DNA from: Nitzschia sp. pyKryTriq1
Lineage: Eukaryota > Bacillariophyta > Bacillariophyceae > Bacillariales > Bacillariaceae
Assembly (NCBI GenBank): GCA_956465555.1
Contig: OY101115.1
Coordinates: 2,480,001 to 2,544,000, forward strand
Reading direction: 5' to 3'
DNA: 64,000 nucleotides
Under the pieces are notes generated by a model, which ran no database searches, was not told the DNA's origin, and worked only from the letters and a program-made list of their open reading frames with translations. The position numbers were made by a program, and so were the translations under genes. The stretch's first letter is position 1, and every line of letters begins with the position of its first letter. Positions 6,924 through 58,310 of this stretch are shown one piece after another.

Positions 6924-7428
6924 GGTAAATCAAAATCGAGTAATCTATTTGAGTGTAATACTGACGCCAGTTAAGGATGGATATACCGGTACGAGTAATC
7001 ACAACACAATGATCGCAATGAAGGGACAAGGGACTGTTGCATAATACGTACCAGGTACCGTCACACTGGCATCGCATACCTGTATGTACATACATTTTTC
7101 AGACCAGCCGGCCAAAACGCGGGGGGAACGATTCCCCCCAGAACATTAGCGAACAATTATCGAACCATAACGAACAACTCTCGAGAAACCACGACACGAG
7201 AACATGAGCTCGACGGCGACTGCCGGTACAAGTACATGTACCGGGTACCGCTGCGGGACCTGGTGCGGTCTGGTACAGTAGGTGATGAGGTTTGATGATG
7301 GTGATGGTGAAAAGAGGCACCAGAAGCCACAACCTGGAACGACCTTCATACAGTACCCGAAAGGTGAGACAGTAGAAGAATTGACCCTCTTGCTTGAACA
7401 CTCAAGTTGAAACCGACGATATTTTAAG
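6924..7428. promoter_or_regulatory. Divergent promoter region, CABIN1-like / fibrillin
   Basis: This 505 bp gap separates two divergent start codons. It holds one exact TACCGGTA palindrome at 6984-6991, 61 bp before the CABIN1-like ATG, and related words (TGCCGGTACA near 7221, TACCGGGTACC near 7249). No gene or RNA was recognised. Confidence 0.5.
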
Positions 7429-8438
7429 ATGAGTCGTTCTATTCGACAAGTTTTCATTCTTTTTCCCTACCTTCTTTGTGCGAACAGTCTCCTGGTCGAT
7501 CTCGGACCAAAACGATCTTATGCATCAAAGAAGGTTCGAATTTTTGCGACTCTTAATGAAGGAACCGAAACACGGCGGGATGAAGTCAAGGCGCAGCTCC
7601 TGGATTTGATAGCCGGGACGCCGTCCAATATGCCAACTTCGAAAAGTGTGACCAACCAAATCCTGGACGTGGTTCGTAAAATGGAGCAGACTTGCCCCAC
7701 CCCAGATGAGGATGTCGTTGAAAAGCTCGGAGGAAACTGGGAGCTCTTGTGGACTGCTCAGGATCAGTCAAGTGATGAATGGGGTCTAGGACCGCTACGA
7801 ACATGGATCAAGTAAGTGGAATGCGGTGCTACCTGGTGATGTACCATTGATGATGATGACAGCGTCCCATTTCTAAATTCGAACTTTCTATGCTAGTCCT
7901 TTGGAAAATCAAAGCTATTCCAATAATCCAAGCGCTGATTTTGGACGTGCCAACCCAGTACTTCCTCGGCCTATCCAAGACAGGCTCGAAAAGATCGGTT
8001 TGATCTCACAAGAGGCCGACCCAATTCGTAGCAGCCAGGCGATCGATCTGAAGAAGCAACAGGTGCGGAATGTGGTTTCGTTTGTGCTTCCATCCATTGG
8101 ACAACCGAGGAAAGCATCGTTAACGGGTGAGTGCTCCGACAGAATACAACATGGTTTCACGAGCTATTGAAAGTCTGATATTCATGCAATTTTCTACGTT
8201 TGTTGCAAAAGTCTCGGTGGACTTCAAGCCCAATCCTCTTGATAAACGAAAAGTGGACGTCAAGTTTCAGGCTTGCAAAGTAGTCGTCAACAATTCTCCA
8301 ATCAACGTGAATATCCCGCTTGGAATAATTGGTCCCACCGGATGGCTTCGGACTGGATATATTGACAATACTATGCGGATCACAAGGGGACACAAAGGTT
8401 CCATTTTTGTGTTGACTCGACCAGGGAGAAAATCGTAG
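7429..8438 (+). CDS. Plastid lipid-associated protein (PAP/fibrillin family)
   Basis: Three exons, 7429-7811, 7897-8126 and 8212-8438, give 279 residues; both introns are 85 nt with GTAAGT and GTGAGT donors. After a hydrophobic leader (about residues 8-22), the mature part starts with K-A-Q-L-L-D-L-I-A-G-T, followed by L-G-G-N-W-E-L-L-W-T. It ends with G-W-L-R-T-G-Y-I-D and I-T-R-G-H-K-G-S-I-F-V-L. These are the conserved blocks of fibrillins, lipid-binding proteins of plastoglobules and thylakoids. The leader suits import across the four membranes of a secondary plastid, but I could not prove a cleavage motif. Its stop is 16 bp from the convergent neighbour's stop, so the 3' UTRs probably overlap. 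Confidence 0.85.
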
Positions 8439-8454
8439 AGGAAGGGCACTCTTT

Positions 8455-10095: not shown

Positions 10096-10671
10096 ACCGA
10101 CCAGACCTCTGCATAGTGTGGCCTATATCTTGGTCTTGGATGATGAATACTGTAACAAGTAAAAGTGAATTGCGATTACGGTAACGTAGGTTTTGTGACG
10201 ACACAAAACACAACACCTACCAACATCATCGATCAGGCCAGCATCTTGCTCATCATCTTTTCTTTTCTCGCGCAAGGCTCAAAAGAATCGGAGTGGTCGA
10301 GACTTTCGCGTGCGTGTACTGTAAGAAGTCGCGCGATGTCTGTTAACGCCCTCCTAACCGCGAAAATCCGACTTTGGGGTTTTGTATTCAAAATCCGTCG
10401 AGAAATTTGAAACGGACCGATCGATGAAAGTCCCACGTTCGAGCCAAAAAATCGACAAAGATGAAAAAAAAAGAGGCAGGGCATTTTTCTCTCTCTACGA
10501 AGCTACCGTACCAGGTACCTGTACTCCAACTCGAAGTCTACTAGTAGAGCTAGAGTACAGGTAGAGAGAAAGAGACCATCAGATCGAAAGGTGGGTGTCT
10601 CGTTTTTACCGGTACTGTAGGGTATACTCATACAACAAGTCAAAAGGTTGATTTAGAGTCCAATTTTCAAG
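10096..10671. promoter_or_regulatory. Divergent promoter region with nested inverted repeats
   Basis: This 576 bp gap lies between divergent genes. Near the armadillo-like gene it has nested inverted repeats: CTCTCTAC (10491-10498) pairs with GTAGAGAG (10561-10568), and ACCTGTACTC (10517-10526) pairs with GAGTACAGGT (10553-10562). TACCGGTA lies at 10607-10614, 58 bp before the ATG. No RNA gene was recognised. Confidence 0.45.
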
Positions 10672-12291
10672 ATGATGCGACATGAATCTCCAGCCAAGCG
10701 GCCTCGAACGGTGGAACATCAAGAACATAAGAACCCCCACGATATTGTCCCCTCCATCCACCAAGCTGTCACTGCATCCCAGCGATTCGAAACTCTGCAT
10801 CATTTATTCCGAATACTCAAGTATGACATGAAGAGCAGATCTTGTCACAGTAACCCACAGATTTTCATGTTTTTGATTGAGTCTGGAGTGGTCAACGCGT
10901 TAAGTCTCCAACTCGGATTTGTGCTCAACCGGCACGGTTCCTCCAAGGAAGAAATCGAGCTTCTCTCTACAGCCCTAGATATTTTTTACAGATTTTGTCC
11001 CGATCTTGTCAGCGGACAATCACTACGAGCCAAAGGGAAGGAGACACTTAGGTTGCTAGCTGCCGCGCTTCGACGGGGCGCCATTCTCCCTGTCTTGTCA
11101 ATATGGCATTCCTGCTCATCGAGTGAGGTTGGGACATCCCTTTTGATAGAAGAAGCTTCATTCTTGCATTCTCTCAGTGGTGTGTTTCGACAGGGTAATT
11201 TTGGTGACGAGACACTGGCTGAATTGCTGGGTCTGTTGAAAAACATCACGTACTATGGCGAAGACTTCCGGCCGCGTATCATTGAGCAACAGGGAATGCT
11301 CTCTTCGCTGACAAGTTTAGCCGAGGTCAGGTTATCAGAGAAGGCTCAGGAACGCCTCTCTGCTGTCATTCGAAATCTGGCATTATCACCCGCGACGCGT
11401 GTCGTCCTCGCTCAACGAGCTCATGTTTTGACCTGCATCGTCCGACTAGCAAACGATGCTACAGAACCAACCTTAAGGAATCTACTGAACGCACTGGTTA
11501 GCTTGACAATGGATGGCGATTCCTGTCTTTTAATTGTGTTTCATGGCGATGGTATGCTGATAGAAATGCTCAAAAGGTTTCTTTTCTTCGAGGATTCTCC
11601 AATTGTGCGGAAGCGAGCAGCTAGGTGCCTGCGATTGATGGCGAGAGAAACGTCACTTCCACTTCTCGTACACGATAACAAACTGATGGAGATTTTATCG
11701 AATCGAGCACTTCACGACCCGAATACAGAAGTACGAGCAGAAGCAGCGGAGGCGTTTGGACGATGTGCCGGGCTAATCAAGGCAGCGATGACACAACACA
11801 ACGCTGTTTTGGATGCCCTTACCCACCTCGCAAACAGTCCTAATGTACAAGCTGATGCAATGGCAAGAGCGGTGAAGGATCAAGCATCCCACCCCGAAAA
11901 TAGAGCTTCATTGGCGAACAGAGGGAAGCTCCTCGACGCGATAGCCAAAATTGCTCTATCACCTGAATCCTCAATTACAGCCAAAGAAAATGTTTGCAAT
12001 ACTTTCCTGGACCTCTCAAGTGATGAAAAGAGCAGAGAGGTGATAGCGACTCAGACGACCCTCAATGCGTTGGTCCAAAATGCCGAAGACAGAATCGAGA
12101 GACATACAAACGTTCGAGAGGCAGCCGTAAAGACATTGCTGAATCTGGCCCTCCACCCAGGGAATCGTAAAATCATGGCGAAACAGTCCAGACTTATCCA
12201 GTCCCTCTTGCATTTTGCGACTACAACGACGACAGACGACCTTAAGAAGGAAGTCAAACTTGCTCTTTTGAAACTAGCCGCAGAACTTTGA
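10672..12291 (+). CDS. Armadillo/HEAT-like repeat protein, function unknown
   Basis: A single exon encodes 539 residues from the ATG at 10672. After a short charged N-terminus, the protein is almost wholly helical repeats of about 42 residues, rich in L-x-x-L-A and N-L-A-L-S-P patterns (for example R-N-L-A-L-S-P-A-T-R and K-T-L-L-N-L-A-L-H-P-G-N-R). This is how armadillo-type solenoids look. Such proteins are scaffolds or transport adaptors. I do not recognise a specific orthologue, and no catalytic motif, signal peptide or membrane segment is visible. The stop is 87 bp from the convergent EF-hand gene. Confidence 0.75.
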   Translation: MMRHESPAKRPRTVEHQEHKNPHDIVPSIHQAVTASQRFETLHHLFRILKYDMKSRSCHSNPQIFMFLIESGVVNALSLQLGFVLNRHGSSKEEIELLSTALDIFYRFCPDLVSGQSLRAKGKETLRLLAAALRRGAILPVLSIWHSCSSSEVGTSLLIEEASFLHSLSGVFRQGNFGDETLAELLGLLKNITYYGEDFRPRIIEQQGMLSSLTSLAEVRLSEKAQERLSAVIRNLALSPATRVVLAQRAHVLTCIVRLANDATEPTLRNLLNALVSLTMDGDSCLLIVFHGDGMLIEMLKRFLFFEDSPIVRKRAARCLRLMARETSLPLLVHDNKLMEILSNRALHDPNTEVRAEAAEAFGRCAGLIKAAMTQHNAVLDALTHLANSPNVQADAMARAVKDQASHPENRASLANRGKLLDAIAKIALSPESSITAKENVCNTFLDLSSDEKSREVIATQTTLNALVQNAEDRIERHTNVREAAVKTLLNLALHPGNRKIMAKQSRLIQSLLHFATTTTTDDLKKEVKLALLKLAAEL

Positions 12292-12378
12292 ATCTAGCTA
12301 CCCTCTGTTAATGTAGATCTCCCGTCAGTCGGGCGACATACGAGTACCGCTACCAGACATCCTCTTTCATTATTTTGT

Positions 12379-15092: not shown

Positions 15093-15618
15093 ATGCCGTG
15101 TACGTTCGTACCAGTACTCGTATCGGTAGACTATATCGTAAGCAACAAAACAAGGAAGTTTGTGTCAAATGTCTACCGCATAGACGAGTAGATTCATCTT
15201 GACTTGGGATTTTCTGTGTCAGCAGAGCAGGTGGAGGCAACTAATTTCCACCAATGCTGATTTTATCCACGCCGCCGGCCTGCGTTCGTCGTGTCGTCGA
15301 CCAGTTGGAGTGATGAGTATCGGTACCTGTACCGGTACCTGGAGGAAGCGAAAAGGCTGGAAGGAATGACAGACGGTATCGGTTGACGGTTGTACCAGTA
15401 CAATTTTTGTATAGAGCACCTCAGAAATTGGAGACTATCATCTGATCTGGAGCTACCGGAAGTAGTACGTAGTAGGCTTTATAAAGTAGCTATAATAGTT
15501 GAGCAGCTACTCGCTGCCCCGAAGTAGTAGACTAGAGAGAGACAGCTCGAAAACATACCAAAGACGTCATCGTTTGTCCAAGTTTCTTATCCGAGAGCAA
15601 CCCCCCCCCCCCAACCTG
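15093..15618. other. Intergenic region with poly-C run and TACCGGTA
   Basis: This 526 bp gap holds the AP endonuclease promoter and the 3' flank of the alpha-galactosidase gene. TACCGGTA lies at 15330-15337 within overlapping GGTACC words. A run of 12 C occurs at 15601-15612, just past the alpha-galactosidase stop. No gene was recognised. Confidence 0.4.
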
Positions 15619-16980
15619 TCATGATATCCGACTACCGGTACGATTAGTCGGTAAAGAAGAGATGAAAAATATCTGGAACATGGACACACTGCTCTCGTCC
15701 ACTAGCATGGTGATGTTGTTCTCATAGATGCCCAAATCTTGACGCGCCACGAGATCTCGAACAAAAAAAGAATGCCACTGGTTTCCGTTGGGGAGATGTC
15801 GTCGGGGATCAAATGTGATGGGTTGCTTCCAAAATATCGTGTTTCGATTCTCTAGTACCACCGCCCAAGAATCGGAGGTTCCCGGAGGACACGGCTCGCT
15901 ACCAATATCGTCCCAAGTGGGCTTCAATTCACGTACCCAAACTCGAATGTTTCCTGTCAGCAGATTCGAAGCCGTCTCCGCACACCAACCTTGTCGGCCC
16001 AAAGAGTCTTGGTTGACAGCAATGATATCATCGTTTAACAAAATCATACGACTCTCTTCTGAAATCGTTCGCAAATCAGTCGATATCATGAGGGGTGCAG
16101 CAAATATAGCCCATAATGAAAATTGAGCTTGCTGTTCCGATATCGAAAGGCCTGGGTTCCCAACGACCAGCATGTCGGGATCGTTCCATCCTCCCTTACC
16201 AGCAGCTCGCACCAGCACGTCATTCGGGCTTGAACGAGCCCAGAAATCAATAATCTTGGAGACCGCCTCCCAACTATCAAACACATCGTTGTAATTTCGC
16301 CAGGTATTGCATGTCTGCTTGATTCCATGATTTAGGTAGTCCGGATCTTCCCAGTGATTGTGTTGTTCGTAGTAATCCTTCGGCCAAGCGCAAGAGTACA
16401 AAATAGGTCGACCTGTCCGATTGAGTGCAGCTCCGAAGGCTGGGTACGTGATGCTGAAACTGGACTCGTTCGCATGGCAGTCATCGACTTTAATCGCATC
16501 GATTTCAAAATCGTTAGCCAATGTCAAAGCATCCAGCTCAAAATGTCCCTCAAAACCCGGATAACCGACACATGTTTTGGTTCCAATATCACCGTAAAGT
16601 CCCAACTTGAGCCCCCAAGAGTGAATTGTCGACGAAAGTTTCTTCAAACCGTGTGGAAATCGAGACTTGTCTTCTACCAACTTCCCATTTTTTCGCTTTG
16701 GGGCGCTCCAACAGTCATCAATGTTCACGTATTCATAGCCAGCCTCAAGGTACCCATGTTCCAACATTAGACGTCCTTGGATAAGGTACAACTTCTCCGA
16801 GATGCAAGAATCTGGAAATTTGGTGCAGTTGACTTGGCATCCGAATCGCTCCCACGACATCCATCCCATCGGTGGAGTCAACGCCAAGCCATTGTCCAGA
16901 GCTTGAGACCTCCTTAAGAGTAACGTTGAGACGACACACGTAGAGAGTATCACTAAGAGCGATGGGCAGTCTGTTCGCAT
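15619..16980 (-). CDS. Alpha-galactosidase / alpha-N-acetylgalactosaminidase, GH27
   Basis: A single exon encodes 453 residues from the ATG at 16980. I chose this start because it gives a signal peptide (L-L-V-I-L-S-T-C-V-V-S) directly before the mature A-L-D-N-G-L-A-L-T-P-P-M-G-W-M-S-W. The frame stays open upstream to an ATG at 17208, but that extension shows no homology. Asp166 in K-V-D-D-C matches the GH27 nucleophile and Asp232 in W-R-N-Y-N-D the acid/base. The G-G-W-N-D-P-D-M and A-P-L-M-I-S blocks are intact. The enzyme releases terminal alpha-galactose or alpha-GalNAc from glycans or glycolipids, in the lysosome/vacuole or outside the cell. Sequence alone does not settle which sugar is preferred. 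Confidence 0.9.
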   Translation of the reverse strand: MRTDCPSLLVILSTCVVSTLLLRRSQALDNGLALTPPMGWMSWERFGCQVNCTKFPDSCISEKLYLIQGRLMLEHGYLEAGYEYVNIDDCWSAPKRKNGKLVEDKSRFPHGLKKLSSTIHSWGLKLGLYGDIGTKTCVGYPGFEGHFELDALTLANDFEIDAIKVDDCHANESSFSITYPAFGAALNRTGRPILYSCAWPKDYYEQHNHWEDPDYLNHGIKQTCNTWRNYNDVFDSWEAVSKIIDFWARSSPNDVLVRAAGKGGWNDPDMLVVGNPGLSISEQQAQFSLWAIFAAPLMISTDLRTISEESRMILLNDDIIAVNQDSLGRQGWCAETASNLLTGNIRVWVRELKPTWDDIGSEPCPPGTSDSWAVVLENRNTIFWKQPITFDPRRHLPNGNQWHSFFVRDLVARQDLGIYENNITMLVDESSVSMFQIFFISSLPTNRTGSRIS

Positions 16981-17385
16981 CCTTACAAGTTGGTGAGGGA
17001 TGGCGCTGAAATAAGGAGTGAACCTGCAACAAAAGCAACTGGCATCAACAGGCTCAAAGCTCCGAGTCACAAAAAAGATCCAAATCAAAGATTTTGGGGC
17101 TATGTTAGCACCTGTTTGGCGCCGCGCTTTGTCTCCCATCACCACAGAGCGCATGCGCCTCGCTGTAACGTGGCTCCCACAAGAACTGCGTAGAGATGGG
17201 ACCCTCATTCAAGTACTTCAAGTACAGCTGTATGGGCTCCCTCTAGAGTAATAGTAGAGTTCGAAAAAGGGGAAAGAACTACAACGATAACCCGACAAGC
17301 AGAAAAAGGAAGATCGCAGCGAGGACTTTCTCTAGCACAAAAAAATTATACAAACTTTACGAGCAGCGCCACAATGTTTCATTCC
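16981..17385. other. Intergenic gap upstream of alpha-galactosidase
   Basis: This 405 bp gap holds the alpha-galactosidase promoter and the 3' flank of the acyl-CoA-binding gene. Its first 228 bp are open in frame with the galactosidase, so a longer leader cannot be fully excluded. Nothing else was recognised. Confidence 0.4.
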
Positions 17386-21393: not shown

Positions 21394-21874
21394 CCACTAT
21401 GGTGACATAAGATACCGGTAGAACTCGAAATCTATCTGGATAATGTCAAAAACAAAGAATGCGAAGTTTGTGCTATTGCATGCATGGACGAGAATAACAT
21501 GAGCATTGTTCAGGAAAGAATTACCAGTTACTACTGCTACCCGCGATAGAGATGGAAGAGGCGAAAGGATGACGCGGAGAGATGACGCGACAACGAAACA
21601 AGAGAAAGGCCGAAGGAAAAGAACTTTGACGGACATTAGCGTTCGTTAAGAACGCAGGCTATGTTCGCTAAGATTCGTCGCGGCCGACAACGTCCAACGT
21701 TCGCCGACTTCGACTTTCGAAGTTCGAAGCAACACGCAACAATAAACAATAACGTGAGATGTACGATGTACTCGTAATATATCATGCACATGTCTCTTCT
21801 CAATCTTGCAGACTTCGTAGACACAACCTTGTGTATCTCTCGACAAAGTCATATTGCTCCCCGAACGTTCACCC
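21394..21874. promoter_or_regulatory. Divergent promoter, sirtuin / helical-repeat orphan
   Basis: This gap of about 480 bp lies between divergent start codons. TACCGGTA is at 21413-21420, next to the sirtuin start. GTACTCGTA, a word common in gaps of this window, occurs near 21768. No gene was recognised. Confidence 0.4.
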
Positions 21875-23281: not shown

Positions 23282-23828
23282 AGGACGATATGCAGATAAA
23301 CGTACGACTGGAAAAGGTAGATTATTTTTCTCTACGACTACTCGTAAAGGTACAGTACTCGTAGCAGGAAGTAAGTTGTGCAGTAAGTACCAGGTCTACC
23401 GGTAGAGTCTGTCTGGATTTCATAGTCTCGCGAGTACGTACTCATACCATACATACTGTACCGCTGCGCGGTACGAGCAGACAATGGGATCTGTGCGTGG
23501 AATGTCGGAGGGAGATTTTGCGATGTTGGGTTTTGTTCGGTTTGGTCGTTGTATGACGTCAGCCGATCGCGTCATTGCATGAAGAACATCATTCTCATTA
23601 TTTCGTCATCATTCTCATCGTCACAACATCATCATCATCCCTGCCTGTCCCATGCCTCGCTCCTATGTATCTACCTGTATCCACTTGTTTACTCTTTACG
23701 ACCGACGCAGCGACAAATCATCATTACGGTTCGTAAGATTGAGCAAGGAAGCTTTCCCGTTTGGTATATTCATTCGTAAGGGATAGTATTAGTGTGGCTG
23801 TGGCCTTCAATCTCAGCCAAGCATTATC
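23282..23828. promoter_or_regulatory. Intergenic region upstream of ADCK1-like gene, with CRE and TACCGGTA
   Basis: This 547 bp gap holds TACCGGTA at 23397-23404, several GTACTCGTA-type words at 23336-23470, and a perfect CRE palindrome TGACGTCA at 23554-23561, about 270 bp before the next ATG. TGACGT-type elements control CO2- and cAMP-responsive genes in diatoms. No gene was recognised. Confidence 0.4.
23554..23561. promoter_or_regulatory. CRE-like palindrome TGACGTCA
   Basis: This is an exact bZIP/CREB consensus palindrome upstream of the ADCK1-like gene. Its role is inferred only from the motif. Confidence 0.35.
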
Positions 23829-26854: not shown

Positions 26855-27515
26855 GTTTTTCTTTTCTTTTCGGAACTGTTTTTGTAAAGCGGGATGAATG
26901 AAGCTATTATATGTTGTACGGTATTTGAACAGAAAACAATGAAACAACACAAAACAGGAAAGGACGAAAGAAGAACGAAACGGATCAGATCGAGGAACCT
27001 GCAATTTGCAATGGCGGGAAAGGAACAACTCATAACCTGATTATGGACCGATGTTTTGTGTCCAATCTGGGATAACGGGAAGCTAAAAGGGGGGCGGATT
27101 TATACATACCTTGCATACTAACTGTACATAGCTCGATCGAGCGCGTGGCGCGTGGCGCAAAATGCCACCGACCGAGAGACGCACACTGAACACTGAATGC
27201 GTGATGGGACCCGTTCAAGCGACTTCTTTCTTCTTCTTCCATCGATCGCGATCAACTTCATTATTATTACCCGGTACAAGTACTGTATTTGTTTTCCAGG
27301 ATCGATCTCTTCCATCCTCTCGTACTGTAAATACCTGTGGCGCCACGAGAGGTGGATTGGTCTGTCTTCCCGGCGTAAAGGTCACGATACTTTGTATCTA
27401 TACGTCCAGTACCGGTACAGCTTTTGTATGTTTGGCGTCGTGGAGCCATCAAACGACCCTTTTTGCTGCGAGTACCGGTAGAAAGGGGGCATCCGATATT
27501 CCGATATTATTATCC

Positions 27516-30729: not shown

Positions 30730-31172
30730 TGTCTAGCTGGAGTGGAAGCTCGGGGCTGGTCGATTGCTAGTTCATGCATTATAGAAGGGCAAATGGCGTC
30801 GTGTGTCATTGGTGTGGTTGACATTTGGCATGCTCTGTTCTCTCTCTACTAGTAGTAGCTAGCTCTATGTTCTACTCTCTACTAGCTTGAGCTAGTACTC
30901 GTACCGGTAGTAAGAAGAAAGAAGATTGTGTGAGGGGGCGGATACGGGTCCAATTAGTCGACCCTCGTTTGGACTACTACTAGACTACTACCGGAACCAC
31001 AAATTATTGATGAAACGAGAGGAGAGAGAGGAGTGCACACAGCGTTCCCCATCCATTTCATATGACACAAGCAGCATACTTGCACTCCGTATGATACAGG
31101 AGGAGTCGTCGTCTCTCTCACAGCCAAAGGCGACCAAGGCAGCGATCTTTTGCGTGTCGGAGAAATCTCAGA
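30730..31172. other. Intergenic region with TACCGGTA and CTAGTAG words
   Basis: This 443 bp gap has dense ACTAGTAG, TAGCTAG and GTACTCGTA words at 30845-30910, ending in TACCGGTA at 30902-30909. It should include the promoter of the methyltransferase gene. No gene was recognised. Confidence 0.4.
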
Positions 31173-36843: not shown

Positions 36844-37389
36844 GTCGGATATGATTGTTAGGTTTTTGATCAGGAAGGAAAATCTCTGGTCTTGAAGTTC
36901 TCTGTTAACAGTGCTTAGTGAGGAAAACTGGAAAGAGCAGACTTCTCAATATGTGAGGGGCTCTGGTCTTGACCCAGGAGCTACATACACAAGTACCCAT
37001 CTACATACACACCAGGTAAAAACAAGGCACTGTAAAAACACAGCCTGGTCCCCAAGTAAATCCCCCCAAGCAAAGCACCCCCAAAATCAGCCTGGTCCCC
37101 AACTAAACCCCCCCCAAGCAAAGGGGACCCCCAAAATCAACCTACCGGTACCCATACACTCTGTATCATACACGTACAAGTAAGTGTAGTCTCTACTCGG
37201 GTAGAGAAAACGTTGCGACGAAGAAGATGACACAGTGCTGGTACCGGTACCCGGTATGCGTACCTGGTACCGTACGTTCATCATTATCATCACACCAGTG
37301 CATCATCCTACTTGTACCTTACCGGACAATGTGATCTACCGGTACACCAATCGTCGTCGAAAGCACTCTTTTCACTCAGGCAATCCAAA
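36844..37389. promoter_or_regulatory. Divergent promoter with tandem repeat and three TACCGGTA
   Basis: This 546 bp gap holds TACCGGTA at 37143-37150, 37242-37249 and 37337-37344, the last 46 bp before the next ATG. A tandem duplication of about 48 bp lies at 37041-37137. No gene was recognised. Confidence 0.45.
37041..37137. repeat. Two-copy tandem repeat, unit 47-50 bp
   Basis: Both copies begin CAGCCTGGTCCCCAA and end CCCCCAAAAT; they differ by a few substitutions and a short indel. It is a local, non-coding duplication. Confidence 0.8.
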
Positions 37390-38695: not shown

Positions 38696-39031
38696 GAGAT
38701 TTTATCAGAATTAGCAGACTAGTAGTATGACTCCTCGGCCCACCATTCGTACCGGTACCGGTAGAAGCAAACCATGCTGAAGATGAGGAGTCGTCACGAA
38801 GTGGTCGTTCTAGTCATCGACAGGATGTTTTTTTGCACAAAGAAGAGCGATTGGCGATTTACGATACGCACGGTATTTCCGACTACGAGTACATCAGACT
38901 TCCCATTTCGATGCGAACAACGCGAACGAACAATTCCTTCCTTCATGTTCTCGCATTGCTGTACCGGTAGGTAGAAACGACCCGAATTCTGAGAGTACCT
39001 ATACGACTCCGATCGAGAAGGGAAATGGACC
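38696..39031. promoter_or_regulatory. Intergenic region with three TACCGGTA
   Basis: This 336 bp gap has overlapping TACCGGTA at 38750-38757 and 38756-38763, and a third at 38962-38969, 63 bp before the OTU-gene ATG. No gene was recognised. Confidence 0.45.
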
Positions 39032-40176: not shown

Positions 40177-41816
40177 GCCACAATTTGCTTGAGACCGTCT
40201 CTCCTGACGCACCATCGCATTTGATGGAGCACCTTGCTTTTGAGACTTACGACGACGTACCGGTATGTTTTATCTTTCACGCGGGCACAACGCCCCAGGG
40301 ATCCGAACAGTCCGAAGAAATTGATTCTACTGTATATCTTGCCCACAGCTACAGTAGTATACGATTTCACAGTAGTATACGATACTCGCTGATCAAATGT
40401 GCCCAACTTGCGTTATTGGTTGGGTTTGTATTCCTACGAGTACGAACTCGCCACGATGAACTATGATCGACGATAGGCGCGATATTTCGCCGTTGACAGG
40501 TGAGGCCTTCGCAGTCGCAAAATCCAGCTTTATGACTCTCTCTAAAAAGTTGTTGGTTGAACCTTTCTACCCGCTCGTAGGGAATTGGACGACTTGCAAC
40601 TCCACTCTAGACGACTGGTGCTTTTGCTCTGGCCCACTGCTCCATGGAGACATGCACTACTCTGAGTACTACGTAGTGTACAGTACGTACTGTTCTTGCG
40701 CTCGCACTCTATAGCTAGTACGAAGAAGAGAGTGGTGCCTCTTTTTGCTCATTTAGCAGTCTTTCTCCTCTCTACAGTACGAGTACACAAGAGGGTGGAA
40801 ATATGTTGTAGTAGCACGAGGATTATGTACGAGCGTGTAGTTCAGTTGGAGTGACCTATCGTTATGTGCATACATACTACGTTTACGAATACTACTCTAC
40901 TTCTATTGTTCTAATATTCACTATCTATCTCTTGCTCGTACGGTATCGTCTTTCCTCGTCAACGACGTCAGCATGCATGCTACAGTACACGTGGCGCGTC
41001 ACAACCCGCAAAAGCGCCTGAAAAGGAAGAACTTTGATTGGTCAAGGTTGAGTCCCAGGAGTCGTTCGTTCATTACTGTACATTACTTAGCGCGCGTGCG
41101 CCAAACTTGCGCCGAAGGCCAACCGAACACGCAACAACCATCGAAGTTTGATTTGAATTCATCGCACAAAATCAGAAAAAAGCGCCTTTCGTCGTCTTGT
41201 CGGAAGGACCAGAAAAAAGAGTTGCCCGTAGCAACCAAAAATTTACCAAAAGTAAGTCAGAGATATTTGTTGCTTTGTGTGTTTTGTTTTTGCCATGGTG
41301 GAATCTCGGAATTGAGTATGGTGAAGATGCCAGAAGAATGCCTTTTTTCGGTCGACTTTACACGGTGGTCGGTTCTGTTTCGATGGCGCACGATCCACTT
41401 GACTGCAATTCCACGGCTCCTCCGGGTTCTCTTCCGTTTACCTCAATACTACAGGATGAGGAAAATTCCTGTCCACGTAGGAAACTTCGTAGAAACTTCG
41501 AAGAATTTGGAATTTCGGATTGCCACCTCGAAAAGAAATGAGAGGCAGTGGATGGTGGTGGTCGTGGTGGTTCTAGAGCCGCACACCATGGACAAGAAGG
41601 ATTTGCATGCAAATTCAGCTCAGGAACATTTCATATTCTTCCAGTGGACAGATATCCCTACTACGTAGAAACGGAATCGCATCTCACCAGAGGTTATTGC
41701 TTGCTTCCTTTCTTGACAGAAAAAATAAACGAGAGTCTTCTCTTGTCTTTTGATTTTCTCAGATCCACCAAGCTTTGTTACGTTATTTCCCGAGTTTAGA
41801 ACAAACGAACCGGACC
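40177..41816. promoter_or_regulatory. Long intergenic region; probable 5' leader intron of PABP
   Basis: This 1.64 kb gap has TACCGGTA at 40258-40265 and GTACGAGTAC-type words near 40436 and 40776. Before the PABP ATG, a GTAAGT at about 41251 and a strong acceptor (TTTTCTCAG, ending about 41761) could frame a leader intron of about 510 nt. Open frames here have no recognisable protein. Confidence 0.35.
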
Positions 41817-43901
41817 ATGTCTGCTCCAGCCACCGAAAACGCTCCTGAAGGAACCCCTGCCGATGCTCCCCCCTCCGCCCCTGCCCCTGCTCCCATGCCT
41901 GGACCCTCTTCCGCTGTCGAGACTACGCCTTTTCATTCCGCCTCGCTTTACGTTGGAGATCTTGCCCCCGATGTGAACGAAAGTTTGTTGTTCGAGATTT
42001 TTAACGCTGTGGGACACGTCGCTTCGATCCGTGTGTGCCGTGACGCTGTCACCCGCCGTTCTCTCGGATACGCCTATGTTAACTACCATCAATTGAACGA
42101 CGCCGAGCGTGCCCTTGATACCATGAACTTTTCGATGATCAAGAGCAAGCCCTGTCGTATCATGTGGAGCCAACGTGATCCCTCGCTTCGTCGCTCTGGT
42201 GTTGGTAACATTTTCGTCAAGAACCTCCACGAATCGATCGATAACAAGCAGCTCTACGATACTTTCAGTCTCTTCGGTAACATTCTTTCGTGTAAGGTCG
42301 TCACCGACCGTGAGACTGGCAATTCTAAGGGATATGGATACGTGCACTATGAAACCGCAGAGGCCGCCAACGCTGCCATCGACAAGCTTGATGGTATGTT
42401 GATTGACGGACAAGAAGTCCAAGTTGGTCACTTTGTTCGACGCAACGAGCGTCCTGGACAGCACGATTGGACTAACTGCTACGTCAAGAAGATCCCTCTC
42501 GAGTGGGACGACGAGCGACTCAACAAGGAGTTCTCCCAGTATGGAGAAGTTGTGAGCGCTGCAGTTGCTATGGGCGTCCGAAAGACCATGCCGAAGAAGC
42601 CAGAACCCAAGGAGGGAGAAGAAGGAGGAGACGAGAAAACAGAAGAGAAGGAAGACGAACCGGAGGAAGAACCCGAGGAAGAGGACAACAAGGATGAGAC
42701 CGGCGACAAGAAGATCGAAACCCTCGGCTATGGCTTTGTTAATTTTGCCGATCACGAATCTGCTATGGCTGCTATCGAAGGTTTGAACGGCAGAAAGTTC
42801 AAGACCGTAGTTGACGGGGAAGAGATCGAACAAGAAATTTTTGTTGGACGTGCCCAAAAGAAAGCCGAACGTGAGCGTGAACTTAGAGCAAAATACGAAG
42901 CAGAGAAGATGGACCGTATTTCCAAGTTCCAAGGAGTCAACCTTTACATCAAAAACCTTGACGATACGGTCACCGACGACCAGCTTCGTGATGAGTTCTC
43001 TGTCATGGGAACGATCACGTCGGCCCGAGTGATGAAGGACATGAAGGATGGCCGATCTCGAGGATTCGGCTTTGTTTGCTTTTCGACCCCAGAAGAAGCC
43101 ACCCGCGCTGTAAATGAGATGAATGGCAAAATTGTGTCCAACAAGCCGATCTTCGTTGCGCTTGCTCAGCGCAGAGATGTCCGTCGCGCCCAGCTGGAGG
43201 CGCAGCATGCCAGCCGAGTTGGACCCGGTGGTCCTGGCCAGCCCGGTATGATGCGGGGACCTATGGGCGGACCGATGGGATACCCCGGCATGCCCATGTA
43301 CATGCAACGACCTGGACCCGGTGGTGCAATGCAGCCCGCCTACCCAATGGCCATGCCCCAAATGATGGGACCAGGTGGCCGGGGAGGTCAAAGACCTGGC
43401 TACCCTATGATGCAAGGGGCGGGCCGTGGTGGCTACCCAATGCCCTATGGTGGAATGATGCCGCAGCAGCAAGGCCGAGGAGGAGGTCGAGGTGTTCCTC
43501 AAGGAAGAGGTGCTGGACGAGGCCGGGGACCCGGTGGTCCTATGCCAGGCCGAGGCCCGGCTGGTGGTCAACAGATCAAGTTCAACCAGCAAGCCCGAAA
43601 TGCCGGGCAACCGATGCCAGCGCAGGCCCCTCCTGCGCAGCAACAAATGATGTCAGAAGGCGCTCTTACTGCCAGTGCGCTTGCTTCTGCCTCTCCAGAA
43701 ATGCAAAAGAACATGATTGGAGAGCGACTCTACCCTCTTATCCACCAGTCACAACCTGACTTGGCTGGAAAGATTACCGGTATGCTTTTGGAGATGGACA
43801 ATAGCGAGCTTCTCCACCTTTTGGAGAGTCCTGAAGCCCTGGGCTCCAAAATCTCGGAAGCGCTTCAAGTGCTCGAAGCGCACCAGGCATCCGATTCGTA
43901 A
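41817..43901 (+). CDS. PABP: Cytoplasmic poly(A)-binding protein
   Basis: A single exon encodes 694 residues from the ATG at 41817. Four RRMs are clear: RRM1 from about residue 42 (S-L-Y-V-G-D-L-A), RRM2 (N-I-F-V-K-N-L), RRM3 (N-C-Y-V-K-K-I-P) and RRM4 (N-L-Y-I-K-N-L). A Gly/Met/Pro/Arg-rich linker follows, then the MLLE domain at about 635-690 (R-L-Y-P-L-I, then K-I-T-G-M-L-L-E-M). It binds mRNA poly(A) tails and supports translation and mRNA stability; MLLE binds PAM2 motifs. RRM3 is split by an acidic insert of about 40 residues (259-300), unlike most PABPs. A 616-codon antisense frame is a codon-bias artefact and suggests high expression. Confidence 0.96.
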   Translation: MSAPATENAPEGTPADAPPSAPAPAPMPGPSSAVETTPFHSASLYVGDLAPDVNESLLFEIFNAVGHVASIRVCRDAVTRRSLGYAYVNYHQLNDAERALDTMNFSMIKSKPCRIMWSQRDPSLRRSGVGNIFVKNLHESIDNKQLYDTFSLFGNILSCKVVTDRETGNSKGYGYVHYETAEAANAAIDKLDGMLIDGQEVQVGHFVRRNERPGQHDWTNCYVKKIPLEWDDERLNKEFSQYGEVVSAAVAMGVRKTMPKKPEPKEGEEGGDEKTEEKEDEPEEEPEEEDNKDETGDKKIETLGYGFVNFADHESAMAAIEGLNGRKFKTVVDGEEIEQEIFVGRAQKKAERERELRAKYEAEKMDRISKFQGVNLYIKNLDDTVTDDQLRDEFSVMGTITSARVMKDMKDGRSRGFGFVCFSTPEEATRAVNEMNGKIVSNKPIFVALAQRRDVRRAQLEAQHASRVGPGGPGQPGMMRGPMGGPMGYPGMPMYMQRPGPGGAMQPAYPMAMPQMMGPGGRGGQRPGYPMMQGAGRGGYPMPYGGMMPQQQGRGGGRGVPQGRGAGRGRGPGGPMPGRGPAGGQQIKFNQQARNAGQPMPAQAPPAQQQMMSEGALTASALASASPEMQKNMIGERLYPLIHQSQPDLAGKITGMLLEMDNSELLHLLESPEALGSKISEALQVLEAHQASDS

Positions 43902-44578
43902 ACGACCAACGCTCCTCCCGGTAGCAGCTATTGGGATAGTCAAAGGCCTACCATGCTTGATTAGTGTAAATTAGACTCATTCTCCCAAAGACAACGCCGT
44001 ACAATAGTAGTGATCGATTCTTCAATCGCTTCCTGGTGGTATCCAATCTACTAGACTCCTACTTACATCACAGAAGAGTAGCCACTCACGGTAGAGAACT
44101 TATCATGGAAGTACTCATTCAGTTTCTGGCCGTGCCAAAAAGCCCAGAGGCGGTCTCTACTCTACTTGAGTCTCTCTAGAGTCTCTAGTAGAGGAGAGTA
44201 CAAATAATAACAATAAACAAGGTACTCTATTACAGCAGATAGATACTACTACCGGTAGTAGAGGACGATGGAGTGGAACGGACGGCGGACAGGAACCCTC
44301 CAACTACCGTTACGCACACTCACCACTCACCACTCACGACGACGCACACGGGGCGAGATCGATCGATCATCGAAGAAAAGGCGTGCGCGGCGGCGCCGCC
44401 GCCACGGCACGCGATGTTGACTATTTTCTCGTTTCGTAACGAGGATACAAGTATCAGTATGTGTTGTCGGCTCTCGCCTCTCGCACTTGTTGCATACTGC
44501 AAATCTTTAGAATATCCCATCAACACTAACGCACTTCATTGCTCCATTCAGTCCGGAGAATAAGATAGAGAAGGACCG
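43902..44578. promoter_or_regulatory. Intergenic region with palindromes and a GC-rich hairpin
   Basis: This 677 bp gap has the 16 bp palindrome CTACTACCGGTAGTAG at 44246-44261 and a strong GC hairpin at 44381-44412. CTCTACT/AGTAGAG words fill 44155-44200. No gene was recognised. Confidence 0.45.
44381..44412 (+). repeat. GC-rich hairpin in probable 5' UTR of the KH gene
   Basis: GCGTGC pairs with GCACGC, and GCGGCGGC with GCCGCCGC, separated only by CACG on one side. It sits about 170 nt before the KH-gene ATG. It would be very stable if transcribed. Confidence 0.7.
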
Positions 44579-51509: not shown

Positions 51510-52149
51510 GGTCCCTGGTTCCCCCCTACGTGGTCAAACTGTGAATAGAATGCTTGTTGCAATGAGAATGAGAATACTGGTATTCGTCTCGTTGTTACAG
51601 TAGATTTGTGTCGGTTCTGCAGTTGCAAGAATTTTCACTACTACCGGTACCGTATTATTTTAGTCGGTGGATGTTAGCAGGGAGTTTGAGTCTGAGAGTT
51701 GTTGCAGTAATTCGCGCCACGTGTGTAGCCTAACTATGTACTGATGGTGGTGTGTGTTATCGTGGGGGGGCATGTACCGGTAGTACCGGTATGCATCATC
51801 GCCCGTTGCACTTTCGTTTTGCCAAAAAATAAATGTTGGTCGCCCACTATTTATGCTCTTGCTATTATTAACCACCGGAATCGCTTACTGCATGCTACTG
51901 GTAGCAAACCACGAATTGTGCGTGAATCGAATCTAAAATACTTCATGTTGAGAATAATACAGCAACTATGTTGTTAAATGCGTCCAGTAGACTTCACATA
52001 AATAATATAGCATGCGTTTATTTATTATTACCGTCCGGAAGGAGTAATTTCAAATTATTTATGCAGCATCAAAAGCCGCTACAGCACATCATTGCGTCCG
52101 TACCGGTATCGATAATCCGAGCAAGGTCAAGATGTTGAGGACGAGGACC

Positions 52150-52180: not shown

Positions 52181-52232
52181 CATTGATGTAACATAATGTG
52201 GAGTCGCCGTCACAGGCCATTTGCTAGCGCCT
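51510..52232. other. Intergenic region with several TACCGGTA and a (TTG)10 repeat
   Basis: This 723 bp gap has TACCGGTA at 51642-51649 (133 bp before the Myb-gene ATG), 51775-51782, 51784-51791 and 52101-52108. A (TTG)10 microsatellite lies at 52150-52180. No gene was recognised. Confidence 0.5.
52150..52180 (+). repeat. (TTG)10 microsatellite
   Basis: This is an uninterrupted trinucleotide run in the 3' flank of the secreted-protein gene. Confidence 0.9.
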
Positions 52233-54421
52233 TTATTGTTGACCCTCTTGAAACATGGCGACAATGGTGTCCTCGTCCATCATGTGTTCATCAGTCTCCA
52301 CTCTCCTCAATTGTCGACGACTACCTGCAGTAGGACACGCACATCGAATCAGGAAGGAATATTGAGCGACAGTGGTCGAGGGAATATCTCCTGGATGGCA
52401 GCATCGATCAATGTCGACGGGTCCAAAGATTTGATCGGCCAATGATTCGGTTGCGTCGACAAAATACAATTGGATCAAGGTGACGGGATTTCCATGCGCT
52501 TTGAGGCAATTGGCGGTAACAAGTGTCGATTCCACAACGCCACCACATGGCTCCAACATGTGCTCTTCACAGGCTTGCGACCAAGCACCTGCCTCTCCAG
52601 CGGGTTCGTGGTACTTGACGAAAACCCTGGTGGTGACTGGGAAGGGATTATACACTTGGAATTGAATCGAAGATCCATCACCTGTTTCAGTGATATTCCA
52701 GATAATATCCACATCTTCGGGAGAGGGAGACGCACCTTGTACGTTCAGAGCTACCACACCCGTACCGGTAGCGTTAGGGCAATGCTGACTGCCTGGGTTC
52801 GATAAGTTGTCGTCTGGGATGCATTTGGGCGTGCTGGCCACCAATGTTTCCGCAGCAGTGGGATTGGCACTGGAACTTGCTGCAGGCATGTCAGTAGGGC
52901 TTGCGATTGGCATGTTAGTGGGACTTGCTGTTGGCTTGGGAATCGGCGCAGTGGTGATGATGTCTTCATAAACTTCCACAGCGGCATCATCAGTATCGGT
53001 TACCTGGATTCCAGAATAGTAGCCCGTTCCGACCACAGTAGCTTGAATGAAGCCTTCCGGAGCCAAGGAACCCGAGATCGAGGACCCCGACACATATACT
53101 GTGTCGCCAGGACACAAGCTCTCCGAGGTATGAGTGATGGAATGGTTGGGAAGGCCACCAATTGGAGCCGGATCGTTCATATGCACATCATACAAGCACT
53201 CGTCACTGCTTTCGGGTACACTGATTTCATAGCAGTACGCCCAGTCGCCCGAAACAGAGGGGACCGTATACAAGTCAGGTTCCAGGTCGCTCATGCCCTC
53301 GGAACTACAGATTCCTGGAGGTCCGGCGTACTTGAGAATCTGGATTTCAGGAGTGGGCGTCTCGCGGCAGTATCGATAAACCAACGAATTGATACTTCCA
53401 GACCCCCAGTATTTGACATCCACCATGGTGACATTGTTGTAGATACTTGGATCGATATCTACAGGATAAAGGCCATTGTCTCCGGTGGGTTGAGTATTGA
53501 AGGTGCTCTGTTGTCCTCCTTGATGAACAAACAACTTGGGGCTGTAGCCGCCCTCGTCAATGTCCAACAAAGAAGTCAAGGAAAGTGTGACTGGCTCTCG
53601 AAAGGTTAACGTGATATATCCACCTTTGCCTGTGTCGTCTGGGCAGTCCTTGTTTTCTTCTTGGATGATGGTAACCATTCCAAGAGGTTCACAATTGGCA
53701 TATGGGTTCACTTGACCATTGGACACAAGGGGCTCGCCTCCCGATCCATGCCCTGTTTCGATTAAAGATATCACAGTCAGTTAGGAGAGAATCGCTGAAT
53801 CGTGTTGTCTCACGTTGAGATTTCACGGTAACTATTTTGATTTGACTTACCGGGTCCACCCCCAGGGCATTGGTTGTTGGGCGCTCCCAAGTCCGGATCT
53901 CCTTCGCCAACGCGGTTGGCACATAGCGGTTGGTGGTAAGCAGGGTTTGAGCTCCAAGTGGGTCTCATGGTATCGAAGAGACGCACGGCACCCCCAGAGG
54001 AAGGATCGTCTTTGTCCTGGTTGATCTTGTCGTCCTTCCACTTGCCACTAACGCGGTCATAGCGAGGAATGAATGGTTTGGAGCTAGTGGCATGACCGTT
54101 GTCCAAGATTCGGGCCGAGACCTTGATTCCGTGAGTATACCAGAGCTGATCGTACAGGTAATCGCCAGCCCGGAATGTGGAAGATTGGCCGTAGTAGTTC
54201 GCCATTGGATTGGGCAAGTTGGTGAAGTCCAGAGTGACAAACGGGCACTCACCAGACTCGACGCAACAATTAATATCGGTGTCCCACTTGCATTCAGGAG
54301 CGTCCACACAGGCAACATTTCCGAGACCAGTGCAGATGATTCCTTGCACAGCAGGGACCAACGACGACCCGACAAGCGCAATGGCAAGTTTAGCTTGTGT
54401 CGACGATGCGAAAGGCTGCAT
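52233..54421 (-). CDS. Large secreted protein, probably stramenopile-specific
   Basis: Two exons, 54421-53851 and 53752-52233, encode 696 residues over a 98 nt intron (donor GTAAGT). A signal peptide (L-A-I-A-L-V-G-S-S-L-V-P-A-V-Q-G) opens the protein. The rest is cysteine-containing, acidic and rich in Asn, Ser, Thr and Pro, with strand-like blocks (Y-I-T-L-T-F-R-E-P-V-T-L-S-L). A short Pro/Thr/Ser linker (K-P-T-A-S-P-T-N-M-P) divides it near residue 490, as in diatom extracellular proteins with PT repeats. A basic R-R-Q-L-R-R lies near the end. I recognise no enzyme motif. A cell-wall, adhesive or extracellular-matrix role is plausible but only inferred. Confidence 0.75.
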
Positions 54422-55852: not shown

Positions 55853-56698
55853 TTATGATGGAAGGGTGGAGTACGGTGGCGGAGTCGCGGTATCTTTTCT
55901 TTACTTTCCTGTAGGAATTGAATAACGGAACAAAAAAGAGTCAGATAACAGATCCACCCATACCCTCATGACATTCCATCATTCCTCGACACATTATACG
56001 TGTGCCAAGACGTCCTCGGCAGCAAAATCCCATGGTGGCACGTACCTGATCGAGTACCTCAGAAAAAGAAAAACGCCAGAAAAAAATGAAAGCTTCTGTG
56101 GGGTGGGCGGCGAACCAGAACGAAATTCTGAAGCCCGCTATCGAGCGATGACGACGGTTGCGGGAGTGCAGGCTCGCCAGGCGCCAGACACACGAATAGT
56201 ACTGAATCGTACAGTTTGTACGTAGAAAATCCACGATCGGCCGTGATGATCGTTCACAGATTATCGGTTGATTGACGTTATTCCAAGTGACCGTTGAAGG
56301 GACTTAGGACTAAAATGCTGATTATGAAACTCCCGCCAAAATGACTCTTGAGGAAAAAGCGATAAACTGTATGGCCTTGCTTGTGTCTGTTAGAAATTTA
56401 GCCACGACTCCAAAAAAATCGATATTCAATCGCTAATGCGCGGAGTTGCGCAACTAACCTCTGAGACAGATCGATTTTTTTCGCGCCATAAAAACTTCGC
56501 GGCTCGCTCGCTACTCGCGCGGCCGGCGATCGTCGAGATCGGCGGTAATAAAAAAAAATCCAGCATGGCATTGGGGATGGAGATGCTCTAGACATGCTAC
56601 TGGTAGCCCTAATACTGTTTGTAACTGCAGACAACCATTCTTCTCTTCTTCCCGTTGAAACTGCTTTACTTGCACCGTTCAATAAGAAGAAGAACAAT
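55853..56698. promoter_or_regulatory. Intergenic region with E2F-like sites and AT/GC inverted repeat
   Basis: This gap has TCCCGCCAAAA at 56331-56341 and TTTCGCGCC at 56478-56486, both E2F-like, and the 12 bp inverted repeat AAAAAAATCGAT (56412-56423) / ATCGATTTTTTT (56470-56481). They lie upstream of the acidic protein gene. No RNA gene was recognised. Confidence 0.4.
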
Positions 56699-57526
56699 AT
56701 GTCTCCTTCAACAATCGTCGCTCCCGCTGCTGCTGCTGCTGCTGCTGCTGCTGCAATGCCACTCGCTGGCGGGGTCGATATTTCCAAGCTGCTCAAGTCG
56801 CAAGGTCCCGTGGTGACCGCTGTCTTACTCAAGGCCGGGCCGGACGCCATGGTCGAGCAAGTTCAAGTCGACACAACTCCTCAGAAACAAATGGTCCAGA
56901 AGCTGCTTGGGGGTCCTTTTACCTTTCTGGGGCAATACGAAGAAGAGGGGATCATGTTGATGTGTCTCCGACCGGACGAAAACAACAACAACAATGACAA
57001 CGACGACGACGACGCTGAGAGCGAAACTACCGCTGGCGGTCCTCCAAAGTTGTTGAAGAATCAGCACAAGCTTCAGCCGCCCTTTGATGACGCCCAAGTC
57101 CGTGGAGATATTTTGCTCTTGAAAGTAGCGGCCGAGGACGAATCATCATCGGATGCTGACGGTAACGGTAACATCATGATTGACACTCTTGCCGAAAAGT
57201 CCAACGAGGAGTTTTTCCTGAATTACACAAAGGACGAGTACATCAAATTTGCGGCGCGTACGGATGTCGAAGCTCCCAAAGCAGTTGTGAGCGAAGACTT
57301 GGAAGAGGAGGAAGACATGGAAAGTGATGGCGACGAGGAGGAGGAAGAAATGGAAGGGGAGTCTGACGAAGAAGATGACGAAGAGGATGGCGCAGCAGGA
57401 TTCATGGAAATGCTAATGGGACAAGTCATGCAGCGATTCCAGGAGGAGCACGGACGATTGCCCGACGAAATGGAACTACAGGCATTGCAGTCGGCAATCG
57501 CACAAAAGATGGGGGGAATGAACTAA
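56699..57526 (+). CDS. Acidic protein of unknown function, probably DUF5880-like
   Basis: A single exon encodes 275 residues from the ATG at 56699. An in-frame ATG at 56594 would add 35 residues with a hydrophobic stretch (L-L-V-A-L-I-L-F-V-T-A) like a signal peptide; I prefer the shorter form. A poly-Ala run (GCT repeat) precedes a folded part (G-P-V-V-T-A-V-L-L-K, then G-P-F-T-F-L-G-Q-Y and G-I-M-L-M-C-L-R). A poly-Asn/Asp insert, a very acidic region and a C-terminal helix (G-R-L-P-D-E-M-E-L-Q-A-L) follow. I recall this pattern from a stramenopile domain of unknown function but cannot check. E2F-like sites lie upstream. Confidence 0.7.
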   Translation: MSPSTIVAPAAAAAAAAAAMPLAGGVDISKLLKSQGPVVTAVLLKAGPDAMVEQVQVDTTPQKQMVQKLLGGPFTFLGQYEEEGIMLMCLRPDENNNNNDNDDDDAESETTAGGPPKLLKNQHKLQPPFDDAQVRGDILLLKVAAEDESSSDADGNGNIMIDTLAEKSNEEFFLNYTKDEYIKFAARTDVEAPKAVVSEDLEEEEDMESDGDEEEEEMEGESDEEDDEEDGAAGFMEMLMGQVMQRFQEEHGRLPDEMELQALQSAIAQKMGGMN

Positions 57527-58310
57527 GACACATCATGGCGAGGTTCACTGTTTTGGTGCGTGTCTCGTGGGTGGCCGTACCAGCTACCGGTACTTCTTGT
57601 TTGCACTGCTCTATTTTTCTAATACCATGACTAATGGTGTGGTACACTGCCTATACTTCATAGCATCCATAATATGAAGAATGTAGTAGTATATGCTGTT
57701 ATTTTGTGACTTCTAGACCGTTTTGTACCAAGCTTACCATCCAAAGCCACGCACGTGAACGAGAAGTGTGCAAGCTCCAGTACCAAGAGCTGGTGTTGCG
57801 AGAATAGAAATCCAGAGAAGCTGGAACAAAATGGAAAACATACTAGAAAGAGGGGGAAATTTTTTAGAAGAAAATGGTGTAAGTCTGTGCTAATCTAGTA
57901 GTATTAGCAAATCATGACGGCATAGGAGCTGCCTACGTCATTCGACTCCTCCTCCTCTACGGTACCGTACAATATACCATAGACTATATTGGTTCTTACA
58001 GAAAGTTGGTGTAGGGTACGATACGGTATGTATGGTATCATACTACCACTTTCTGCTACAGTAGTACTCGTAGCTTTAGAGAAGGGATCGCGGGGATCGT
58101 TTCGATCGTCGACTACTTGGACAATACCCATCAGACCTTCGTCCGTCGGCACACAGCCCATCCGCTTAAAAAATTATGAATGCTGATGGTGATGAATAAC
58201 GATGAAGGATGAATAAAATGGGGGCTGAAGTTATCACACTCATCATGCTAAGTTAGAATGTCTTGGAGCTGTGCTGATCCTGACAGATTTAAAGAGTGAA
58301 CGAAAGGAAA
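57527..58310. other. Intergenic region with TACCGGTA, no gene recognised
   Basis: This 784 bp gap has TACCGGTA at 57585-57592, shortly after the acidic gene's stop, and GTACCGTAC and GTAGTACTCGTAGC words at 57960-58075. It includes the BRCT-gene promoter. Confidence 0.4.

Follow-up and report, generated by a model that had tools for sequence, protein, structure and literature searches.

A palindromic 8-mer abundant between genes of the diatom Nitzschia sp. pyKryTriq1 exactly matches a promoter motif predicted in an oomycete

Background

To our knowledge, the DNA words that control diatom genes are poorly known. The subject here is TACCGGTA, an 8-bp palindrome that recurs between the genes of a 64,000-nucleotide stretch of Nitzschia sp. 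pyKryTriq1 (assembly GCA_956465555.1, contig OY101115.1, positions 2,480,001 to 2,544,000 of the forward strand), the whole of which is called the window below. The closest described systems are found in the oomycetes, and are given here as the available portions of the cited reports describe them. In Phytophthora infestans, the high-confidence predicted promoter motif M94 is TACCGGTA itself, and hyphal promoters show a stronger over-representation of its close relative, M93 (TACATGTA) (PMC3597505). In Plasmopara halstedii, the motif streme-5 (ATACCGGTAT) is reported among those that precede a group of 206 genes, and has been equated with motif-9 of P. infestans, quoted there as GTACCGGTA (PMC10031896). 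Motif-9 is described as an inverted repeat that is abundant and precedes 1,284 genes (PMC3520976), and the gene sets of both motifs are enriched for infection-related genes (PMC10031896, PMC3520976). Two kinds of P. infestans regulator also have sites of comparable form, namely heat-shock factors (HSFs), which use TTC/GAA half-sites at 0-, 1- or 2-bp spacing, and bZIP dimers, whose binding sites are mostly palindromes (PMC11267843).

Abundance of the palindrome

Exact matches to TACCGGTA number 24 in the window, where a first-order Markov model expects 0.24 by chance, and 100 dinucleotide shuffles of the same sequence gave a mean of 0.47 and a maximum of 4, with none at 24. The original prediction, made from the letters of the window, had listed 23 positions; all of these are exact matches, and one further copy, at 43775, had been overlooked. 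The enrichment is genome-wide and not specific to the window, because the whole genome (40.65 Mb in 20 contigs) carries 15,515 copies, or about one per 2.6 kb, against 839 of the reversed word.

Finer counts were made in a 314-kb sample consisting of the window and 25 spaced stretches of 10 kb. Here, TACCGGTA ranks first among the 256 palindromic 8-mers, with 109 copies seen against 1.5 expected, an excess of about 70-fold relative to the first-order expectation; the runners-up, TACTAGTA and TAGTACTA, reach 71 and 51 copies. Non-coding gaps of at least 200 bp hold 88 copies where first-, second- and third-order models expect 1.0, 2.3 and 5.4, respectively, and coding blocks hold 4 where the same models expect 0.4–0.9. 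Dispersion is fairly even, with 85 copies in the 25 spaced stretches (mean 3.4, variance 5.25). G or C flanks the palindrome on its 5′ side in 93 of the 109 copies and on its 3′ side in 89.

Placement relative to genes

Genes were called with a seven-state hidden Markov gene finder trained from 97 long open reading frames (ORFs), which called 60% of the sample coding and whose gene ends are approximate; the start of a Sir2-like gene in the window, for example, was placed about 580 bp from the start taken in the original prediction. By these hidden Markov model (HMM) calls, 105 of the 109 copies are non-coding, at 0.83 per kb versus 0.021 per kb in coding sequence. Density is highest in divergent gaps (46 copies in 36.8 kb, 1.25 per kb), lower in tandem gaps (36 in 41.0 kb, 0.88 per kb) and lowest in convergent gaps (6 in 25.6 kb, 0.23 per kb). 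At least one copy is present in 23 of 38 divergent, 20 of 49 tandem and 6 of 37 convergent gaps, and in 1 of 28 short tandem gaps. The contrast among gap types persists when gaps are stratified by length (permutation p = 0.0018, 112 gaps of at least 200 bp) and when clusters are collapsed (binomial p = 0.0033).

The original prediction had proposed comparing 3′ flanks with promoters, and the two are not equally dense. Convergent gaps have about one-fifth of the divergent density, or about one-half with a crude gene set made up of ORFs of at least 150 amino acids (82 gaps), and density past stop codons is about half of the upstream value when tandem gaps are counted on both sides. It had also proposed looking for a positional peak. 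With start codons standing in for transcription starts, there is none: density stays approximately level over the 25–1000 bp that precede start codons, and copies in divergent gaps are spread evenly from edge to centre (9, 10, 11, 8 and 8 of 46).

Half-site geometry and related words

A dyad scan, in which each trinucleotide was paired with its reverse complement over spacers of 0–8 bp, placed TAC-N2-GTA at the top in divergent gaps, with 135 seen against 15.3 expected (8.8-fold). The second dyad, ACC-N0-GGT, is itself part of TACCGGTA, and the third is TAC-N1-GTA, with 90 seen against 15.3 expected (5.9-fold). Both TAC/GTA dyads fall outside the 14 leading dyads of the coding blocks. The words with the 1-bp spacer that are enriched in divergent gaps include TACAGTA/TACTGTA and GTAC[AT]GTAC, and may be bound by the same factor or by a sister of it.

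Relatives that are not palindromic can reveal whether a site is oriented, and those of TACCGGTA show no clear orientation bias with respect to the downstream gene. The two orientations were counted at 9/16 for TACTGGTA, 18/15 for TACTCGTA, 11/11 for TACAAGTA, 23/21 for TACAGTAC and 16/21 for TACGGTA, which argues for recognition of double-stranded DNA, and not RNA, by a pair of equivalent readers, one for each half-site.

Single-transition variants of the palindrome, taken from the outer to the inner base pair, were seen 12, 11, 9 and 49 times against 2.0, 1.8, 2.6 and 2.6 expected, and single-transversion variants 7, 9, 11 and 16 times against 4.5, 4.3, 4.7 and 4.6 expected. The commonest one-mismatch neighbours are the CpG-transition variants TACTGGTA (30) and TACCAGTA (27). 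This pattern is consistent with a site maintained in its exact form whose decay runs through the usual transitions, and tolerated binding variants or a mutational process could fit it too.

Clusters and the GTAC-rich vocabulary

Copies of TACCGGTA often lie close together. Pairs with 0–30 bp between them number 1,864 genome-wide, against 3 for the reversed control and about 400 expected by an arithmetic estimate from the non-coding density of the sample. By hand count, 36 of about 100 among the pairs listed are 9–14 bp apart from start to start, which is about one helical turn, and the sequence between clustered copies is often GTAC-rich. The sample also contains eight overlapping pairs at 6-bp spacing, TACCGGTACCGGTA.

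The runner-up palindromes behave otherwise. In divergent gaps TACTAGTA occurs at 0.24 per kb, against 0.73 in tandem and 0.86 in convergent gaps, and both TACTAGTA and TAGTACTA are concentrated, since just two stretches, L001 and L018, hold 33 of the 71 copies of the former and 30 of the 51 of the latter. They thus serve as an internal control, showing that the sample contains repeat-like words without promoter bias. A simple microsatellite is disfavoured as the origin of TACCGGTA, which is fairly evenly spread, unlike these clustered and convergent-biased words. TACTAGTA, TAGTACTA and TAGTAGTA are strongly enriched, biased to convergent gaps and clustered, the places noted being L001:2214-4769, L018:529-643 and, in the window, 10539, 30847 and 54692; the words of the L018 cluster have a regular 9-bp spacing.

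Copies in the window

By our own gene calls, TACCGGTA is carried by five of the eight divergent gaps in the window, none of the seven convergent gaps and eight of the 18 tandem gaps. The five of seven divergent promoters of the original prediction become five of eight. The copies are as follows, each line being one copy of TACCGGTA unless a pair is named, with the strand of each ORF in parentheses where it was noted.

6984..6991: divergent gap, 60 bp upstream of ORF 4923-6923 (-)
10607..10614: divergent gap, 57 bp upstream of HEAT/armadillo-repeat ORF 10672-12291 (+)
15330..15337: tandem gap, 237 bp upstream of Exo_endo_phos ORF 13422-15092 (-)
15633..15640: within the 3′ end of alpha-galactosidase-like ORF 15619-17208 (-); tallied as non-coding in the HMM counts, since the HMM block ends before it
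21413..21420: divergent gap, 19 bp upstream of Sir2-like ORF 20800-21393 (-)
23397..23404: tandem gap, 424 bp upstream of ABC1-kinase ORF 23829-25031 (+)
27410..27417: divergent gap, 144 bp upstream of villin-headpiece ORF (ATG 27562)
27473..27480: divergent gap, 81 bp upstream of the same villin-headpiece ORF (ATG 27562)
30902..30909: tandem gap, 263 bp upstream of ORF 31173-32051 (+)
37143..37150: divergent gap, first of a near-evenly spaced trio (spacings 99 and 95 bp)
37242..37249: divergent gap, second of the trio
37337..37344: divergent gap, third of the trio, 45 bp ahead of ATG 37390
38750..38763: overlapping pair (38750, 38756) with the sequence TACCGGTACCGGTA
38962..38969: non-coding by HMM, yet within open frame 38794-39660 (-), which has no Pfam match
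40258..40265: long HMM non-coding gap
43775..43782: within RRM/MLLE (poly(A)-binding-protein-like) ORF 41817-43901 (+)
44250..44257: tandem gap, embedded in ACTACCGGTAGT
51642..51649: 132 bp upstream of ORF 50721-51509 (-)
51775..51791: pair (51775, 51784), 9 bp from start to start
52101..52108: 591 bp upstream of ORF 50721-51509 (-), in the gap shared with the 51642, 51775 and 51784 copies
52763..52770: within ORF 52233-53678 (-), coding by HMM
57585..57592: 58 bp past the stop of ORF 56594-57526 (+), with the next start 718 bp on

Seven start-codon distances had been given originally, and six of them agree within 1 bp with ours (60, 57, 19, 81, 45 and 132 bp); the seventh, 63 bp for a gene called OTU, could not be placed. 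Among the gene names attached to these distances, Pfam backs the HEAT/armadillo repeats, Sir2 (weakly, at 26 bits) and the villin headpiece, and the ORFs taken to be CABIN1-like, proteasome-like and Myb are without a Pfam match at E 0.001. Eight window copies sit 19–144 bp ahead of start codons, and other copies are 237 to 1018 bp away from the closest start codon of a gene they might serve. The 20–140 bp spacing given in the original prediction is accordingly selective.

Proposed function and competing explanations

The reading that we favour is that TACCGGTA is a widely used site for a dimeric regulatory protein, and we would put its probability at roughly 0.68. A palindromic factor site was one of three options that had been offered at the outset, and it is the best fit to the half-site symmetry, the 2-bp spacer, the rarity in coding sequence, the lower density in convergent gaps, the clusters and the absence of a clear orientation bias among imperfect relatives. 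Judging from these sequence patterns, a sequence-specific protein would bind by preference to TACCGGTA, usually with G or C outside each end, and would sit on the DNA duplex as a symmetric dimer, with each subunit reading one TAC/GTA half-site. Such a dimer would favour the 2-bp (CG) centre and perhaps tolerate a 1-bp (A/T) centre. Its copies, often in homotypic groups, would lie in promoter-containing regions and may regulate transcription without keeping a set distance to the start of the gene, much like upstream activator sites or general regulatory (chromatin-opening) sites.

Several observations weigh against a dimeric regulatory site. With the crude gene set, the contrast shrinks to 1.02 per kb in divergent, 0.78 in tandem and 0.50 in convergent gaps, and ORFs contain 11 of the 109 copies instead of 4 (0.065 versus 0.68 per kb); the sign of the promoter bias agrees in both gene sets, and its size depends on gene calling. 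Within tandem gaps, successive fifths hold 7, 7, 11, 6 and 4 of 35 copies, with no crowding at the downstream gene. The TAC-N2-GTA dyad is also raised in convergent gaps, where it ranks third (52 seen against 11.1 expected), mostly in the form of other words, the commonest being TACTAGTA with 22 copies versus 6 of TACCGGTA. Moreover, TACCGGTA is part of a wider GTAC-rich vocabulary that includes GTACTGTA, GTACGGTA and others, and the excess of single-transition variants could also be the product of mutation or of a repeat process. The third of the original options, a genomic word that is favoured but has no regulatory function, supposes that slippage, conversion or biased mutation lengthens GTAC-rich non-coding tracts, with TACCGGTA among the commonest 8-mers in them. 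It would account for the overlapping TACCGGTACCGGTA copies, the GTAC-rich sequence of the clusters, the enrichment of related words and the 81 transition variants seen against 9 expected over the four pair positions. It sits poorly, however, with the bias of TACCGGTA to divergent gaps when the repeat-like TACTAGTA and TAGTACTA are concentrated and biased oppositely, with its fairly even spread, and with the importance of the full 8 bp, since transversion variants (43 against 18 expected) remain far under the exact word. We rank a favoured word below the factor site and think it unlikely.

The other explanations also turn on where the copies lie. The remaining original option, a core promoter or initiator element whose distance from the transcription start is constant, would agree with the preference for promoter-type gaps and with the eight window copies close ahead of start codons. 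It is disfavoured because the start-codon profile is approximately flat and the spread is even over tandem and divergent gaps, and of the 38 divergent gaps 15 lack the exact word, as do 29 of the 49 tandem ones; we hold it to be very improbable. In yeast, general regulatory factors such as Reb1 and Abf1 clear nucleosomes or insulate neighbouring genes. An architectural mark of that kind could explain a word that occurs about once per 2.6 kb, is frequent in divergent gaps and keeps no fixed distance from genes, but the divergent and tandem gaps that lack the exact word count against it as well, and it overlaps with the dimeric-factor reading; as an explanation in its own right it seems doubtful at best. 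Least credible, with a probability close to negligible, is a target of DNA modification or an element acting in RNA. The central CpG and the prominence of TACTGGTA and TACCAGTA among the one-mismatch neighbours could suggest modification, yet modification would not need the avoidance of convergent gaps and CpG decay would leave the outer TAC/GTA unexplained, while an RNA element is at odds with relatives that show no clear orientation bias.

Candidate factors and other known sites

If TACCGGTA is indeed a dimeric regulatory site, HSF-type and bZIP-type dimers may be candidates, by geometry only. The genome has 153 matches to the heat-shock-factor domain, exon fragments and copies included. The recognition helices vary widely among the 20 of the 153 that were translated, and none could be tied to TACCGGTA. 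Some of these domains occur in local groups, at C5 3.11-3.25 Mb, C6 0.08-0.18 Mb, C13 1.24-1.33 Mb and on C16, and one 934-residue open frame at C8:1704104-1705888 has the unusual arrangement of four heat-shock-factor domain matches.

Other known sites were tried against the same gaps. The canonical heat-shock element, TTC-N2-GAA, occurs 12 times in divergent gaps and is not enriched there (0.33 per kb versus 0.49 per kb in coding sequence), nor is the CRE word TGACGTCA, with 1, 4 and 0 copies in divergent, tandem and convergent gaps, and the AP-1 word shows no enrichment in divergent gaps. The site of the Grainyhead/CP2 family is AACCGGTT; this word is found in none of the three gap classes and twice in coding sequence, and a profile search of the genome for the CP2 domain (PF04516) gave no match, no control genome being positive in that search. 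SBP-box proteins recognise a GTAC core, and the corresponding profile search for the SBP domain (PF03110) likewise gave no match in the genome, again with no control genome positive, so that both domain negatives are weak.

Other observations in the genome

Two segments, C1 4.236-4.333 Mb and C3 3.095-3.196 Mb, contain matches in the same order. The sampled stretches L029 and L030, which represent this C1/C3 pair, are 99.93% identical over 9.7 kb and hence too similar to inform on constraint; the shared segment is either a recent segmental duplication or an uncollapsed haplotype. The light-harvesting family PF00504 has 72 matches in the genome. The protein from L023 is closest to the fucoxanthin-type chains 6ly5_A and 6l4u_5 (1e-81), which we take to be from Chaetoceros gracilis, and next to 8zeh_G (2e-57), presumably a Thalassiosira chain. 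Taken by themselves, this protein and the 72 family matches suggested a diatom, perhaps a Chaetoceros-like one. Those from L021 and L022 have no match that close, their best being a long multi-domain chain, 9vfj LHCI-11.

Comparison with known systems

The HIP1 element of cyanobacteria is spread through coding sequence. Like HIP1, TACCGGTA is a short palindrome with a very high copy number in one genome (PMC4390886, as far as the available text goes). Unlike HIP1, it is promoter-biased and non-coding in 105 of 109 copies, with 4 of the 109 in HMM coding blocks and 11 in ORFs of at least 150 amino acids. The heat-shock element nTTCnnGAAn resembles TACCGGTA in having inverted trinucleotide half-sites at 2-bp (also 1-bp) spacing (PMC11267843, in the portion available), whereas the half-sites themselves differ, being TTC/GAA in the one and TAC/GTA in the other.

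The nearest counterparts remain those of the oomycetes, again within the available portions of the reports. M94 of P. infestans is an 8-bp palindrome identical to TACCGGTA and is listed among the motifs of germinated cysts and hyphal stages (PMC3597505). Its relative TACATGTA is enriched only modestly in the present genome, with 9 copies in 314 kb against 2.3 expected. Streme-5 and motif-9 are gene-upstream inverted repeats with the same core as TACCGGTA (PMC10031896, PMC3520976). Motif-9, in the letters quoted in PMC10031896, also has the outer G in common with the copies described here, whereas the outer bases of streme-5 are A/T and those of TACCGGTA are mostly G/C. The copy number in this diatom is, in addition, far above the gene counts given for either motif. 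The traits of M94 and motif-9 found here are thus the inverted repeat with the core TACCGGTA and the over-representation upstream of genes, the latter being weaker with the crude gene set. In the available portions of the oomycete reports, no factor is named for this word. A limited search of the open-licence literature, judged by titles and abstract openings, found no diatom report of TACCGGTA, which is a weak negative.

A shared 8-mer is by itself no proof of common descent. It is tempting, though probably too bold, to regard TACCGGTA as an ancient stramenopile system, in which one dimeric factor, perhaps of a diverged heat-shock-factor type with altered half-site reading, would serve thousands of promoters as a general regulatory element and would have kept its preference since the split from oomycetes. 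Promoter cis-elements are a known kind of sequence, and what stands out here is how abundant TACCGGTA is in this genome and that a motif of an oomycete matches it exactly. These two properties make it a concrete probe for a major transcription or chromatin factor of stramenopiles, and the word could be used as a part in diatom promoter design. An upstream motif common to a diatom and the oomycetes would also stand in notable contrast to the oomycete core promoter elements INR and FPR, which the diatom T. pseudonana seemed to lack (PMC3599244, as its available portion states).

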